A stretch of 64,000 nucleotides of DNA. It comes from Alphaproteobacteria bacterium HGW-Alphaproteobacteria-14. GTDB lineage: Bacteria > Pseudomonadota > Alphaproteobacteria > Sphingomonadales > Sphingomonadaceae. A model generated the notes under the pieces. That model was not told where the DNA came from. It saw nothing but the letters and a program-made list of their open reading frames with translations, and did no database searches. How positions within the stretch are numbered: the first letter of the stretch is position 1; each line of letters begins with the position of its first letter. The translations under genes and the position numbers were made by a program. This document shows positions 48,579 through 55,304 of this stretch, piece after piece. Where the stretch lies: contig PHEL01000004.1 of NCBI GenBank assembly GCA_002842925.1, positions 1 to 64,000 of the forward strand. Direction: 5' to 3'.

Positions 48579-48862
48579 TGCAGATCACTTCGATTTCGGC
48601 TATCTATTTCCTGTTCTGGGTGATGAGCGCGTTCGTGATGTTGCCGTTCGGTGTGCGCACCGCCGATGAATCCGGGGAGGCAAAGGTGCCGGGCCAGGCG
48701 GACAGCGCCCCCGTCAATTTCCGCCCTGGCAGGGTGGCGCTGCGGGCAACGATCATCGCGGCGGTGTTTACCGGGCTGTTCGTCGCCAATTACCAATATG
48801 GCTGGGTCACTGTTACCGATATCGACATTCTGCCCAAGCCGCCGGGCGCGGTAGCGCGCTAA
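48578..48862 (+). CDS. DUF1467-family small membrane protein
   Basis: MQITSISAIYFLFWVMSAFVMLPFGVRTADESGEAKVPGQADSAPVNFRPGRVALRATIIAAV. Confidence 0.75.
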   Translation: MQITSISAIYFLFWVMSAFVMLPFGVRTADESGEAKVPGQADSAPVNFRPGRVALRATIIAAVFTGLFVANYQYGWVTVTDIDILPKPPGAVAR

Positions 48863-51249
48863 CTGCGCAGGCGCTGGATCGCCTGTGCCAGCGCGACATA
48901 GAGCTTGCCCATTTCCGAACCCAGCACCGTTAGGCTCAGCGCGTGGCCATCGCGGGTCGACAGGATCGAGCGCAGCATTGCCTCGAAATCGTGAATGTAG
49001 CGGCTGACATTGGCCTTGAACGCATCGTCTGCGTTGTAGAGCGATTCAATCTCGCGCGCGGTGCCATTGTCGATCAACCGCACAGCGCGGCGCGTAAAGA
49101 TGCCGCGGTCGCCCTTCAGGTAGGCGTCCCATGCGGTGTCAGCCACTTCGGTGGACAGCGCGGTGCTGATATCGATGGCGGCCGAATTGAGGCTGTCGGT
49201 GATCAGCGCCATGCGCCGCGCGAAGTCATTATTGATCTGTTCTTCGGCCAGTTCGCGCGCTCGCGTTACGCGGTGTTCGAGATTGCCGGTAAGCTCGTTC
49301 ACCCGAACAAGCTGATCGCGCAGTTGAACTGTCACTTCACGCCCCACGCCAGAGGCATGGGCCGCCGCTTGTTCCAACTTGCCGATCATCGCGGCCGCTT
49401 CGTTACGCAGCGCGCGTTCGAGCACCTCGACCGCTTCGCCGCCAATGCTCTGGGCGAGCGCAGCAGTCTTTTCACGCGCACCGGAATCCAGTGTAGCAAA
49501 GGCCTGTGCAATCGCTGCCTCCAGCGTGCCGAGCGCATCGCGCAATCGTTCTTGCGTATCAGCGGCTAGCGTTCCGCTTTCCTCCGCCAGTCGCGCAAAC
49601 CCGCCGCGCAACCCCTGTAGGCGGGCGAGCGCGTCGTCTGACTGTTCGACGAGGCGTGATCGGAACCCGGCAATCGCTTCATCGGCAGCGTCGATTTCGC
49701 TACGGGTCTGCAGCAGATAGCCTGACAGATCGTTGCCTTGCTCGCTTGAACGAAGCATCAACTGGTTGACCGTGTCAGCACGTGCTTCAACCTCTGAAAG
49801 CGCTTCGCCGGCTCCGGTGATCGACTGGGTCAGATCTTCGCGGGTGGTGCGCGCGCCCGACTGGATGATTTCCAGCAGGCGAATGCCGCTTTCTGTGAGT
49901 TGCGCCAGTTGTGTCTCGGTTGCTGCAAGCGCAGCGCGTTTGTCGGCCAAATGTTCCCCGAGCGTGCCAAGACCTGTCGTAAGGTTGGCGCGTGCAGTTT
50001 CGCCGTGCTCGTCAATTTGGCGTATCATCTGCCCCAACTGGTCGAGGCGTTCTGCCACTGTTTCGCCATGGGCCAGCAGCTTTTCGGTATCGGCAATCTG
50101 CGCTTCACGCCGCAGAGCCAGGGCATCATCAAGTTCACTAAGTCGCTGTGACAGCAACTCGCTTGCTTGCGCTTCGTGGGTTTCGAATGCGGCCTGGCGC
50201 TGTTCAATCTGTTCGGCAAGTGCGCGACTGCGTTCACTCAGCTGACTGTCGAAAGTCTCAATCTCGGACGTGGTCTGCCGCGCCCGTTCGCCGAGCGCGG
50301 CAAGCGCAGTGGCTTCCAGCGCGTCGAGCCGGGCACGGTAGGCTTCGGCATCGGTCTGCAAGGCGACAAATCGCTGGGTGACGAGCGCTTCGATCCGGGT
50401 TAGCTGGTCTTCGAACCCGGTGAGGGTTTCGCCCACCCGTTCACCCAGACTGCGCACCTGCGTTTCGCTGGCGGCACCAAAGGTGTTGAGCCGGTCGAAA
50501 CCGGTCACCAGCCGTTCAAGCTGATCCTGCGCGTTGCGCCCTGCGCCGCCGATCTGGTTGGCGACGTCGCGCGCGGAATTGGCGATAACCGGAAGGTCAT
50601 CGCGCAGCCGGTTCATGTTGCCGAGCGCGGTTTCGCTGGCGCTGCCAATCGCCTCGACCTGCGCGCCGTTGGTGGTGATCAACCCCTGCAATTCGGCGGC
50701 ATGGGTGGAAATCCGCTCCGCCGCTATCCGGCCCAGCGATTCCAGATCGCGCGATTGCGCGCTCAGAAACTCCCGCGCGAGGCTGAGTTCTCGGTTGACC
50801 ACCTTGAGGCGGGCTTCAAGCGCCGTGCTTTCCCGGCTCAATAACACGGCGCTGGCGGCAAAGCGGGCGGCCTCTGCGCGCGATGATCGCATGGCGAGCA
50901 GCCAGGCGATCCCGACCAGACCAACCGGCACCGACCATTGAACGCCCCACGTGACCCACTGGGTAGGCGCCGGATTGCCAAGAATTTCATTCCAATGCGC
51001 CCAGCCAAAAACCCCGGTCCAGGCCGCGACTGTAATGATAGCGAATGCCGGAGCCAGCCAGCCGAAACGGGATGTGGTCAGGACAGGTGTATCGTCCTCC
51101 CGCTCCTCCATCCAGCTTTCCGATAGCTGCAACTCCGCCGTTTCTGGCGATGCCACGTTATCAGCGACATTGTTCGGTGAAACCGGCTCCGCAGCGCCGT
51201 TTTCCCCGCTCTTACGCCCCAAGGTGCGCATCTGGTGCCGTCCTGCCAT
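48859..51249 (-). CDS. Large inner-membrane coiled-coil protein (about 796 aa, two N-terminal TM segments, long helical C-terminal region)
   Basis: Start MAGRHQMRTLGRK at 51249; TM segments FGWLAPAFAIITVAAWTGVFGW and WSVPVGLVGIAWLLAM followed by about 600 aa of coiled-coil-like heptads. Confidence 0.75.
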   Translation of the reverse strand: MAGRHQMRTLGRKSGENGAAEPVSPNNVADNVASPETAELQLSESWMEEREDDTPVLTTSRFGWLAPAFAIITVAAWTGVFGWAHWNEILGNPAPTQWVTWGVQWSVPVGLVGIAWLLAMRSSRAEAARFAASAVLLSRESTALEARLKVVNRELSLAREFLSAQSRDLESLGRIAAERISTHAAELQGLITTNGAQVEAIGSASETALGNMNRLRDDLPVIANSARDVANQIGGAGRNAQDQLERLVTGFDRLNTFGAASETQVRSLGERVGETLTGFEDQLTRIEALVTQRFVALQTDAEAYRARLDALEATALAALGERARQTTSEIETFDSQLSERSRALAEQIEQRQAAFETHEAQASELLSQRLSELDDALALRREAQIADTEKLLAHGETVAERLDQLGQMIRQIDEHGETARANLTTGLGTLGEHLADKRAALAATETQLAQLTESGIRLLEIIQSGARTTREDLTQSITGAGEALSEVEARADTVNQLMLRSSEQGNDLSGYLLQTRSEIDAADEAIAGFRSRLVEQSDDALARLQGLRGGFARLAEESGTLAADTQERLRDALGTLEAAIAQAFATLDSGAREKTAALAQSIGGEAVEVLERALRNEAAAMIGKLEQAAAHASGVGREVTVQLRDQLVRVNELTGNLEHRVTRARELAEEQINNDFARRMALITDSLNSAAIDISTALSTEVADTAWDAYLKGDRGIFTRRAVRLIDNGTAREIESLYNADDAFKANVSRYIHDFEAMLRSILSTRDGHALSLTVLGSEMGKLYVALAQAIQRLRS

Positions 51250-51318
51250 ATGACTATCATAACACAGTCGGACTCGTGATAAACCCCGCTTTAACCCAAT
51301 TTGCCTTATGATCGTATC

Positions 51319-51630
51319 ATGGCGTTTGATAATGGAGCCCTTGATGCGACCCTTGCGGCGGCAGCCGGCGATGATGCCGTGCTGCTGCACGAATTGCGCG
51401 CGGCGTTTCTGGAAAGCGCGGCTCGCCAGCTTGACCTGCTCAAACGCGCGCGCTGCGATGGCAACTGGCACGTTGCGGCAATGCGGCTGAAGGGGTTGGC
51501 GGCAAGTTTTCATGCCGATGATTTGTTGCAGGCAGCTGAAATCACGCTGCAAGCGGCACCGGGTGAGCCGTTGGCGATCCGCGAAATCGAAGCGGTGCTC
51601 GCACGTTTCTCACGCACCACACGCCGCTGA
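51319..51630 (+). CDS. Hpt-domain-like protein lacking the canonical phospho-acceptor His
   Basis: ALLHELRAAFLESAARQLDLLKRARCDGNWHVAAMRLKGLAASFHADDLLQAAE: the HxLKG motif reads MRLKG. Confidence 0.65.
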   Translation: MAFDNGALDATLAAAAGDDAVLLHELRAAFLESAARQLDLLKRARCDGNWHVAAMRLKGLAASFHADDLLQAAEITLQAAPGEPLAIREIEAVLARFSRTTRR

Positions 51631-51700
51631 TCCCATGATGGTGCTTGAACGATTGCGCTGAACCCGCCAATCCCTCAACCTTTCCGTCACTGTATCGGAG

Positions 51701-52906
51701 ATGTGCGGGATGCGCACCGGCCTGATTGCTGCTGTCACACGCACCGCGACCGGCGAATTGCGCGCTGAATTGCCTGTGGCCGGGCGTGCGGTGCTGGCCT
51801 GGCAGGTGGCGTTGATGCGCGATCTGGGGGCAGAGCGGATTTTGTGCCTGTGCGAGGATGTGAGCGGTGAAGTTTTGCGGCTGCAACACGAGGTTGAAGC
51901 AGGCGGCGGCGCGTTTCATGCGTTGAAAGGCTTTGCCGCGCTTCCGGCGCTGGTTCGGGCCGAGGATGATCTTATCATATTGCGTGATGGGCTGGTGCCC
52001 GATCCGCTGCTGGCGCGCTCGCTGGTGGAGGCTGACCTCGGCCTGCGTCGGATGATCGCCTGCGTGCCTTCCGATCATCCGCTTGCAAGCAGCCACCCTT
52101 ACGACTTTGAGCGTGTCGATGCAGTGCACCATTGGGCTGGACTGTTGGTGATGCGCGGCGCGCCCGTGCAACACTTGGCTGATTTTCCTGCGGATGCCGA
52201 TGCGGTTTCGGTGCTTTTGCGGCTCGCCCTGCAATCCGGAACGCCATGCCATGGCTTGACTGCAAATGCGCTGACGGATGAGGCGTGGTTACTGGCCGAC
52301 AGCGCCGATGCGATCACGCGGCACGAACAGGCCATGATTGCAAAGGCCGCGCCTGAACCGGATTGGCGCGCGCCGCTGGCGACACTGGCGGCGGTGCTGG
52401 TGCGAAATCTTGCGCCGCGCGGGCTGAATCGGGCACCAATGCTTGGCGCTGCCCTAGCATTCGCCTTGCTGATTGGCGGAGCGGTGGCGGCGGCGTTGGG
52501 GGCGGCAGCGGGCGGCCTTGCGCTTGCAACTCTTGGCAATTTTGCAGCGCGGCTTTCGGGCGGCTTTGCGACGCTACGTCAGCATCTGCAGCACCATAAC
52601 ACCGCTGGGCGGCCTGGTGCGATTGCGGGGATTGTGGCGGATGTTCTGACCGCAGTTGCGATGTGGTTTGCACTGTCCCCTTGGCCGGAATGGACTCCGC
52701 TGGCGGTGTGTGGGCCGATAGCCATCGGGCTGGCGCGACTCGCTTCGAAAGCAAGCAATACCGCGCTGGCGGCGGTGGCATCCGACAGGGCGAGCCAGTT
52801 GCTGTTGCTGTCCCTGGCGGCGGCTTTCGATGTGCTGCCCGAGGCGGCCGCAATCATGGCATTGGCACTGCTTGCAGCTTTGCTACTGCGCAAAGCCGAC
52901 AATTGA
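51701..52906 (+). CDS. Nucleotidyltransferase-like domain fused to a multi-TM domain (degenerate CDP-alcohol phosphotransferase-like), unknown function
   Basis: N-terminal TGLIAAVTRTATGELRAELPVAGRAVLAWQVALMRDLGAERILCLCED; C-terminal hydrophobic segments. Confidence 0.55.
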   Translation: MCGMRTGLIAAVTRTATGELRAELPVAGRAVLAWQVALMRDLGAERILCLCEDVSGEVLRLQHEVEAGGGAFHALKGFAALPALVRAEDDLIILRDGLVPDPLLARSLVEADLGLRRMIACVPSDHPLASSHPYDFERVDAVHHWAGLLVMRGAPVQHLADFPADADAVSVLLRLALQSGTPCHGLTANALTDEAWLLADSADAITRHEQAMIAKAAPEPDWRAPLATLAAVLVRNLAPRGLNRAPMLGAALAFALLIGGAVAAALGAAAGGLALATLGNFAARLSGGFATLRQHLQHHNTAGRPGAIAGIVADVLTAVAMWFALSPWPEWTPLAVCGPIAIGLARLASKASNTALAAVASDRASQLLLLSLAAAFDVLPEAAAIMALALLAALLLRKADN

Positions 52907-52925
52907 ACTAACGCGGCCTTAACTA

Positions 52926-52944
52926 TGCAGGTGTTACGCCTGCA
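52926..52944. promoter_or_regulatory. Strong hairpin immediately upstream of DUF2336 start codon
   Basis: TGCAGGTG-TTA-CGCCTGCA, 8-bp stem with one G-T wobble, 3-nt loop; ATG at 52948. Confidence 0.45.
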
Positions 52945-52947
52945 AGG

Positions 52948-53898
52948 ATGGGCGAAGAAACGATGGACCTTGCCGCCGACCAAGCTGTCGAGGCGATCCT
53001 GCGGGATGAACTCGCGCGCGAAGACCGCGCGGCGGCTGCGGTCGTCCCGGTGCTGCGCCATTTGCTCGCCAGTGATGCCCATGCGCTGGTGAGCGACGCT
53101 ATTCTTGCGCGGGTGCGCGGCATGGTGGTGGATTGCGCCGCGCAATTGCTGGCAGCCATGGCCGGACGTGATCCCGCCGCCCGTTCGCCCGCGCTGGCCG
53201 ATCCGGCGAGGATCGATTTCTGGGCCGAGCGATTGATGCGCGACGAGCCGCTGCTCAGCTTCTGCCATGCGCTTGCCAATGAGGGCCTGCTTGCGGAAAA
53301 GTTCCAGCTGCGCCGCGCCATCGACCCGGTGCTTAGCTCGCTATTGCAGGAACTGATCGCGTCTGATGACCCCGCGATTGCCAGTCTGGCGATGAGCGCG
53401 CTTGCCGCGCAATCGCGCTTTATCCAGAGCCAGCGCCGAATGGAGTTGCCCTTGGGCGAACTTCCGGCCGAGCTTTTCCATGCGGTGATCGCGATTGGCC
53501 TGCGCCATGCGGCCGATGACACGGCGCGCGCTGCGCTCGAACGGGTGCCACTACGCTATGATGAGGCCGCCAGCCGGCTTGGGCTGCTCGCGCATCTGGT
53601 CGCGGCGATGCGGCGGGGGACGGTGGCGGCAATGGCGATTGACCACGCCGGGCTTGCCCTCTTCGCGACCGCACTGGCAACGCAAACGCGCCAGCCGCGA
53701 GAATCGGTGGTGCTGGCCTGTCACGCAGGGCAGGGCGCTCGGCTTGCCCTGGCGTTGCGATCGGCCGGGCTTTCCTTGCCTGAGATAGAGCGGCAATATC
53801 TGCTGGTTGAGCCTGCCGCCCGAATGCCGCGCGCGATTGCCACGCTATTGCCAGAACACGCTGCGACCATGCTGTCGGCAAGCAGAGCGGCATCATGA
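52948..53898 (+). CDS. DUF2336-family protein
   Basis: Alpha-helical protein, DPARIDFWAERLMRDEPLLSFCHALANEGLLAEKFQLR; ORF overlaps downstream kinase start. Confidence 0.65.
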   Translation: MGEETMDLAADQAVEAILRDELAREDRAAAAVVPVLRHLLASDAHALVSDAILARVRGMVVDCAAQLLAAMAGRDPAARSPALADPARIDFWAERLMRDEPLLSFCHALANEGLLAEKFQLRRAIDPVLSSLLQELIASDDPAIASLAMSALAAQSRFIQSQRRMELPLGELPAELFHAVIAIGLRHAADDTARAALERVPLRYDEAASRLGLLAHLVAAMRRGTVAAMAIDHAGLALFATALATQTRQPRESVVLACHAGQGARLALALRSAGLSLPEIERQYLLVEPAARMPRAIATLLPEHAATMLSASRAAS

Positions 53899-55304
53899 AC
53901 ACCATTGATCGACACGACAATCTGCAGGGCACCTGCGGGCTCACCGATGCGCACGACCGCCTGTTGAGCGCCGATGAACAGCTGACTGAATTGCAGGAAC
54001 GCTGCGGAGGCGATCTGCCGGGGACGCTGGCAATCCCCGAATTGCTGGAACTGGTGCGGCAATCGCGCCGTATGGGGCTGCGCATTGCACGCAGTTTCAA
54101 CGCCTTTGATGGCGATGCTATGATCTCCGGGTTTGCGCGAATTCACCCGTTGACCGAAGCTGATGGCGGCGGGTGCGAGGTGCTGATCGACAATTGGCAG
54201 CGCAGTGCACTGGCTCCGCCGAGCAACAGTGAGTTTGCCGAAAAACTTGATGCGATTGATCGTGCCACTGCGGAAGTGACCGCGCGGCTTGATGCAGGCC
54301 AGCGCGTGCAGGTGCTGAGCACAATTGCACCGGATGCGGCGGACTTGCAGGCAGCGGCGACAGCGCAGCCCGGGAGTGTTTGGAGCGACCTGGTCAATCT
54401 CAGCACGGTCAGCCATCATCAGCCGTTGCACTGGCGCTTGCTCGATGGCGCAAATTGCTGCTTTGACGGATCGCAGCGGCATTGGCGTATCCGGCTAATC
54501 CCGCTGGGGCCCGATGCCCATAACCCTGATGGATTTGAACTGCTGCTTATCGCGGATGAGCCGTTGATCACCATTCCGTCGGACGAAGAAGATCACGCAG
54601 ACCGTGACGATAGCGCGCCGACCCGGTTGATCGGCACCGCGCTCACTCCGGTGCTGCGTCAACCCATTGCCCGGATCATCGCCAATGCCGAAACGATCCG
54701 CGCGCGCCTCGCCGGGCCACTGCGCGAGGAATATAGCGAATATGCCGGAACCATCGCCAGCGCCGGTCAGCATCTCGCCGCGATGCTCGATGATCTGGCC
54801 GATCTTGAGGTGGTGGAAACGCCGGGCTTTGCCACCGCGCGAGAGCCGGTCGATCTGGCCGACGCGGCGTCGCGCGCTGCGGGCATCCTCGGCGTGCGTG
54901 CGCAAAACCGCGACATTGTGATAGAATTGGCCGGAACGCGCGGCGAGGCGGTAGCGACTGCCGAATTCCGCCGAGTGCTGCAAATCCTCATCAATCTGAT
55001 CGGCAATGCGATTGCCTATTCGCCGGTGGGTAGCGCTGTGCGGATCACCGCCGGGCCTGCGGGCGAGGGGCGTGTCGGTGTTGCCGTGGCGGACGAAGGC
55101 CCCGGTGTTACGCCTGATCAGGCGGAGCGCATTTTCGACAAGTTCGAACGGCTTGGCCGCGACAGCGATGGCGGCAAGGACAAGGGATCAGGCCTCGGCC
55201 TGTTCATCTCGCGCCGCCTTGCCGAGGCGATGGACGGCAGCCTGTCGGTCGAAAGCGCCGAAGGGGGCGGAGCACTGTTCAGGCTTGAACTGCCTGCGCA
55301 ATAG
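53895..55304 (+). CDS. Histidine-kinase-family protein with intact HATPase domain but Pro in place of H-box His
   Basis: HisKA-like ALTPVLRQPIARIIANAETIRARLAGPLREEYSEYAGTIASAGQHLAAMLDDLADL; N-box LINLIGNAIAYS; DEGPGV; GSGLGLFISRRLAEAMDG. Confidence 0.85.
   Translation: MNTIDRHDNLQGTCGLTDAHDRLLSADEQLTELQERCGGDLPGTLAIPELLELVRQSRRMGLRIARSFNAFDGDAMISGFARIHPLTEADGGGCEVLIDNWQRSALAPPSNSEFAEKLDAIDRATAEVTARLDAGQRVQVLSTIAPDAADLQAAATAQPGSVWSDLVNLSTVSHHQPLHWRLLDGANCCFDGSQRHWRIRLIPLGPDAHNPDGFELLLIADEPLITIPSDEEDHADRDDSAPTRLIGTALTPVLRQPIARIIANAETIRARLAGPLREEYSEYAGTIASAGQHLAAMLDDLADLEVVETPGFATAREPVDLADAASRAAGILGVRAQNRDIVIELAGTRGEAVATAEFRRVLQILINLIGNAIAYSPVGSAVRITAGPAGEGRVGVAVADEGPGVTPDQAERIFDKFERLGRDSDGGKDKGSGLGLFISRRLAEAMDGSLSVESAEGGGALFRLELPAQ

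Follow-up and report, generated by a model that had tools for sequence, protein, structure and literature searches.

A candidate polar or septal scaffold locus of Sphingomonadaceae combining a coiled-coil membrane protein with phosphotransfer proteins that have lost their histidines

TipN, the new-pole marker of Caulobacter, and GPR, the growth-pole protein of Rhizobiales, have been called only analogous (PMC13170164). GPR and RgsE carry apolipoprotein-like repeats together with a membrane anchor, and the C terminus of GPR is essential (PMC8262873, PMC7327166). DivL is a pseudokinase acting on CckA, and the greater part of the Caulobacter polarity module is reported to be missing from sphingomonads (PMC8116508). 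In Sphingomonadales CckA-ChpT-CtrA is reportedly kept and DivJ-PleC-DivK degenerate or lost, DivK being absent or atypical (PMC2877005). A title cited in PMC12700997 connects SpbR with pole development in Caulobacter, and DUF2336 is not mentioned in the literature searched. We found PopZ in 61/61 genomes searched, including the genome to which the present locus belongs.

The locus lies in a window of 64,000 nucleotides, the whole stretch of DNA analysed here, from an assembly of 2.75 Mb in 233 contigs whose gene content is consistent with Sphingomonadaceae. Translation of the window confirmed the set of five genes between housekeeping blocks that a first-pass annotation had pointed out, as all five open reading frames are intact at 48859-55304 (Table 1). 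The genes for the Hpt-like, NTase-membrane, DUF2336-like and kinase-like proteins form an operon divergent from the gene of the coiled-coil protein (CC), in which the DUF2336-like and kinase-like frames share 4 bases (53895-53898). On one side the locus is flanked by nuoN-birA-coaX-rnj-DUF1467 and on the other by gltA-gltX.

Table 1. Positions of the genes and sequence elements of the locus within the window
Feature	Positions	Strand	Remarks
CC	48859..51249	-	796-aa inner-membrane coiled-coil protein; start codon kept among relatives
CC C-terminal helical domain	48862..49266	-	occurs across Alphaproteobacteria
CtrA-like box TAAA-N7-TTAA	51280..51294	.	divergent promoter; one mismatch to TTAA-N7-TTAA
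Pseudo-Hpt, 103 aa	51319..51630	+	Met55 replaces the phospho-acceptor His
NTase + multi-helix membrane domain	51701..52906	+	IPCT-DIPPS fold (nucleotidyltransferase + CDP-alcohol phosphotransferase); catalytic signatures lost
DUF2336-like protein (remote relative)	52948..53898	+	
PdhS/DivJ-type pseudo-histidine kinase	53895..55304	+	Pro252 replaces His; N, G1 and G2 boxes for ATP binding retained

With the DUF2336-like protein as query, 112/251 genomes of the family were matched, and 80 loci of relatives were fetched by this match, so that the presence of the DUF2336-like gene in them is by construction and no evidence. The kinase gene was found in all 80, CC and the NTase protein in nearly all, and the Hpt gene in 68, with the same order and orientation in nearly all loci; CC itself was present in 88/89 family genomes searched. 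The scattering among relatives that had been named beforehand as the result speaking against a module did not occur. In L088 and L112 the five genes also stay together without either housekeeping flank, away from rnj and gltA. In some genera the module is split, as in G305, with CC and Hpt beside rnj (L127) and NTase, DUF2336-like and kinase genes beside gltA (L090), or the Hpt is missing, which indicates that the partners are not strictly interdependent. All five genes have dN/dS of 0.08-0.28, the NTase protein being the fastest-evolving (mean column identity 33%). The locus could also be a slowly decaying relic that no longer has a function, which would fit the loss of catalytic residues in several of the proteins and the loss of Hpt or NTase in some genera, but we give this reading almost no credence, as the frames are intact, purifying selection is strong across the family and a new conserved motif, PVLRQPIARIIANAETI, occupies the former H-box of the kinase.

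Several further loci of CC were of different composition. In four of them (L116, L118, L119, L120) CC is kept and no Hpt, NTase, DUF2336-like gene or pseudokinase was detectable alongside. In three others (L115, L121, L124) different genes come after CC and the pseudo-Hpt, including one for a repeat-type protein, with an Lrp-like regulator in two of the three and a different kinase that retains its His. The suspicion that this His-containing kinase is fused in L124 to a DUF2336-like domain was not supported.

CC has hydrophobic segments at residues 62-80 and 102-120, and two N-terminal transmembrane segments followed by a long coiled coil, as first described for the window protein, were found in 78/79 relatives' loci as well. 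The coiled coil matched the apolipoprotein-like family PF01442 in 20/39 relatives. The conserved C-terminal domain (about the last 135 aa) occurs across Alphaproteobacteria: a model of CC had matches in 68/236 good genomes of the class, in most cases to this domain, and the matched proteins are about 500-2,700 aa long. In the family containing the genus Caulobacter, recognised through G682, which lies above the Caulobacter DivJ cut-off, the domain is mostly on proteins of 830-1,200 aa with two N-terminal transmembrane segments (E to 1e-16), and their genus, length and architecture mark them as putative TipN proteins. The domain is also carried by GPR-length proteins of 1,900-2,000 aa (L226, L142). 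A conserved-stretch search with the C-terminal alignment (A7) matched Parvibaculum and other alphaproteobacteria and no Caulobacter. The comparison with TipN, which had been offered for topology only, is now backed by homology of the C-terminal domain. The structure model of this domain has a pLDDT of 86, and a fold search with it (48862-49299) gave no significant solved fold. The best match was the helical bundle of MIC60 (E 0.34, not significant); the layout of CC is likewise transmembrane segment, coiled coil and C-terminal helical domain.

Both phosphotransfer proteins had been described as His-less, and this holds throughout the core family. In the kinase the His position is Pro252 (P in 35, A in 2, S in 1 and R in 1 of the 39 aligned sequences), the His is missing in 81/81 loci and the H-box of the core family reads PVLRQPIARIIANAETI. 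The residues of the ATP site, in contrast, are invariant in 39/39 (Asn367, Asn371, Asp400, Gly402, Gly431, Gly433, Gly435). The core of the kinase is nearest to PdhS/DivJ, and the protein matches the DivL structure 4q20 at 1e-27; no transmembrane segment was found in it. Its closest kinases from other families, from one genome within the family (G117) and from one genome of the Caulobacter family read SHELRTP, with the His kept, and no other kinase matched at 1e-25 in the window's genome or in G018. In the Hpt-like protein the position is Met55 and in the 32 aligned sequences M, Q, L, G, A or E, never His; the His is missing in 69/69 loci and in 11 further loci of the family. Its Hpt-like label is upheld by weak PF01627 matches in 10/32 relatives together with syntenic homologues that contain the His. 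The universal absence of the histidines, the invariant ATP site and the dN/dS values together mean that His loss in this locus is ancestral and selected, and not decay.

Phosphate could in principle pass through other residues and signalling could still be catalytic. Such a cryptic phosphorelay would make use of the intact ATP site, and candidate acceptors are His65 of the Hpt (27/32) and His293, Tyr280 and Tyr283 of the kinase (39/39). However, His65 is ten residues beyond the usual site and is N, Q, M, G or S in 5/32, His293 belongs to the 'AGQHL' stretch, which is also present in true PdhS kinases next to their actual His, and the neighbouring receiver is gone, and we therefore regard this explanation as improbable.

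The NTase-membrane protein was modelled with a pLDDT of 93.9, and the model has the two-domain fold of Archaeoglobus IPCT-DIPPS (4MND, E 5e-9, TM 0.58), its best structural match, in agreement with the NTase-transmembrane fusion read from the sequence. This match would suit an operon of envelope or lipid synthesis, in which the protein would be catalytically active on CDP-alcohols under regulation by the other products. Yet the DxxDGxxAR signature was found in 0/78 relatives and GxG[ST]R in just 2/78, and given the missing signatures the protein is probably no enzyme of the IPCT-DIPPS kind; as it is also the fastest-evolving of the five, a lipid-synthesis operon seems to us improbable. The support for the DUF2336 label is remote: PF10098 was matched by 4/40 relatives (best 9e-14), whereas the window protein has no Pfam match and a PF10098 search of its own genome found nothing. 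None of the window-type proteins match the SpbR model NF052659.

The CtrA consensus is TTAA-N7-TTAA, and a near-consensus CtrA-type box is conserved in the divergent promoter. With at most one mismatch it was found in 53/69 loci against 1.6 expected from shuffling, although the loci are not phylogenetically independent, and it is nearly always 38-42 bases upstream of the Hpt start. The half-sites are conserved and the spacer is variable. As controls, the regions upstream of gltA, rnj, gltX and coaX had such a box in 0-2 of 77-78, and GANTC was at chance level in the divergent promoter (26 loci against 23 expected). From its sequence, the shared promoter is predicted to be bound and controlled by CtrA. 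The box, the closeness of the kinase to PdhS/DivJ and DivL, and the known action of the DivL pseudokinase on CckA (PMC8116508) would all fit a DivL-like module that reads a DivK-like receiver or tunes CckA, CC only positioning it and the main output being CtrA activity and not cell shape. Of the alternatives to a scaffold we find this one the least improbable, but still unlikely, as DivK is reportedly absent or atypical in the order (PMC2877005).

The ancestral state can be seen in other families. In those of the same order CC is divergent from a His-containing Hpt (L131, L132, L134-L137), and outside the order the same arrangement is seen in L144-L146 and L149. In three of the latter loci (L144, L145, L149) an unrelated membrane-protein gene is between the two. 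The His-containing Hpt is often accompanied by a protein of about 100 aa, a single-domain response regulator with FGPDRRR at its end, and a second Hpt carrying IAHDMKGQGGTFG; this cluster of other alphaproteobacteria is undescribed. The conserved cluster was seen beside TipN/GPR-type genes in L134 (11185-13014), L132, L135, L140, L141 and L117. According to per-family counts compiled from the CC and regulator search lists, the regulator is present in 56/62 genomes of other families and in 1/89 within the family. The sole exception (G117) has also kept the Hpt His and has an additional gene similar to the second Hpt. In the CC tree (FastTree) all His-less loci form one clade, and G117 is outside it. 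Together these distributions and the tree indicate that the loss of the regulator and the loss of the Hpt His coincided, probably once. A DUF2336 gene adjoins CC in two outgroup loci (L138, L140), the protein of L140 matching the NCBIfam SpbR model, and the link between the two genes thus predates the family.

We give about an even chance to the reading that the locus encodes a CtrA-linked polar or septal scaffold module in which phosphotransfer has been replaced by binding and ATP-gated allostery. The five genes would make up a single scaffold for the cell pole or division site, with CC, anchored in the membrane, as its TipN/GPR-type coiled-coil organiser. The ancestral CC would have been beside a phosphorelay with active residues (His-containing Hpt, single-domain response regulator and second Hpt), and along the branch leading to the core Sphingomonadaceae both the regulator and the Hpt His would have been lost. 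The retained pseudo-Hpt now travels with the His-less PdhS-type kinase of intact ATP site, a probably dead membrane protein of the IPCT-DIPPS type and the DUF2336-like protein. Most likely the kinase would change conformation under ATP gating and so dock two adaptors, the pseudo-Hpt and the DUF2336-like protein, onto membrane-bound CC, and CtrA, acting on the shared promoter, would determine the timing. Complex formation and ATP gating among the five products, as well as the scaffold or allosteric function and the polar or septal location, are predictions from sequence. More tentative, and clearly short of even, is our view that an ancient alphaproteobacterial phosphorelay around a TipN/GPR-type polar scaffold became in Sphingomonadaceae a signalling complex consisting of nothing but disabled enzymes (pseudokinase, pseudo-Hpt and pseudo-IPCT-DIPPS), with binding and ATP-dependent allostery as its mode of action. 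Evolution may thus have turned a phosphate-passing pathway into a purely structural one.

The module is a candidate polarity hub for sphingomonads, and G117 and the other families, set against the core Sphingomonadaceae, provide a natural before-and-after series that bears on how a phosphorelay loses phosphate transfer and yet is retained. The kinase shares with the PdhS family (DivJ/PleC) the DHp signature 'GPL..Y..YA..I..AGQHL' and an intact HATPase, and like DivL it is His-less, but its acceptor position is Pro and not His or Tyr. The pseudo-Hpt has the sequence family and KG motif of the Hpt domain (PF01627) and is syntenic with His-containing Hpt proteins, whereas its acceptor His is replaced in all core members. 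The NTase-membrane protein has the fold of IPCT-DIPPS (PDB 4MND) and is missing both catalytic signatures. With DUF2336/SpbR (PF10098, NF052659), genes of which adjoin CC in the two outgroup loci, the window protein has a putative remote similarity through PF10098 and matches neither model. CC resembles GPR/RgsE (PMC8262873, PMC7327166) in its two transmembrane segments and apolipoprotein-like coiled coil, a likeness drawn from GPR-length proteins and descriptions, but is less than half as long. With TipN it has in common two N-terminal transmembrane segments and a long coiled coil, and its C-terminal domain is homologous to that of the TipN-like protein in genomes of the genus Caulobacter; in contrast to TipN, its locus carries a pseudo-relay operon and its marking of the pole is putative. 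Through this common C-terminal domain, TipN-like and GPR-length proteins, only analogous in the earlier account (PMC13170164), become linked.
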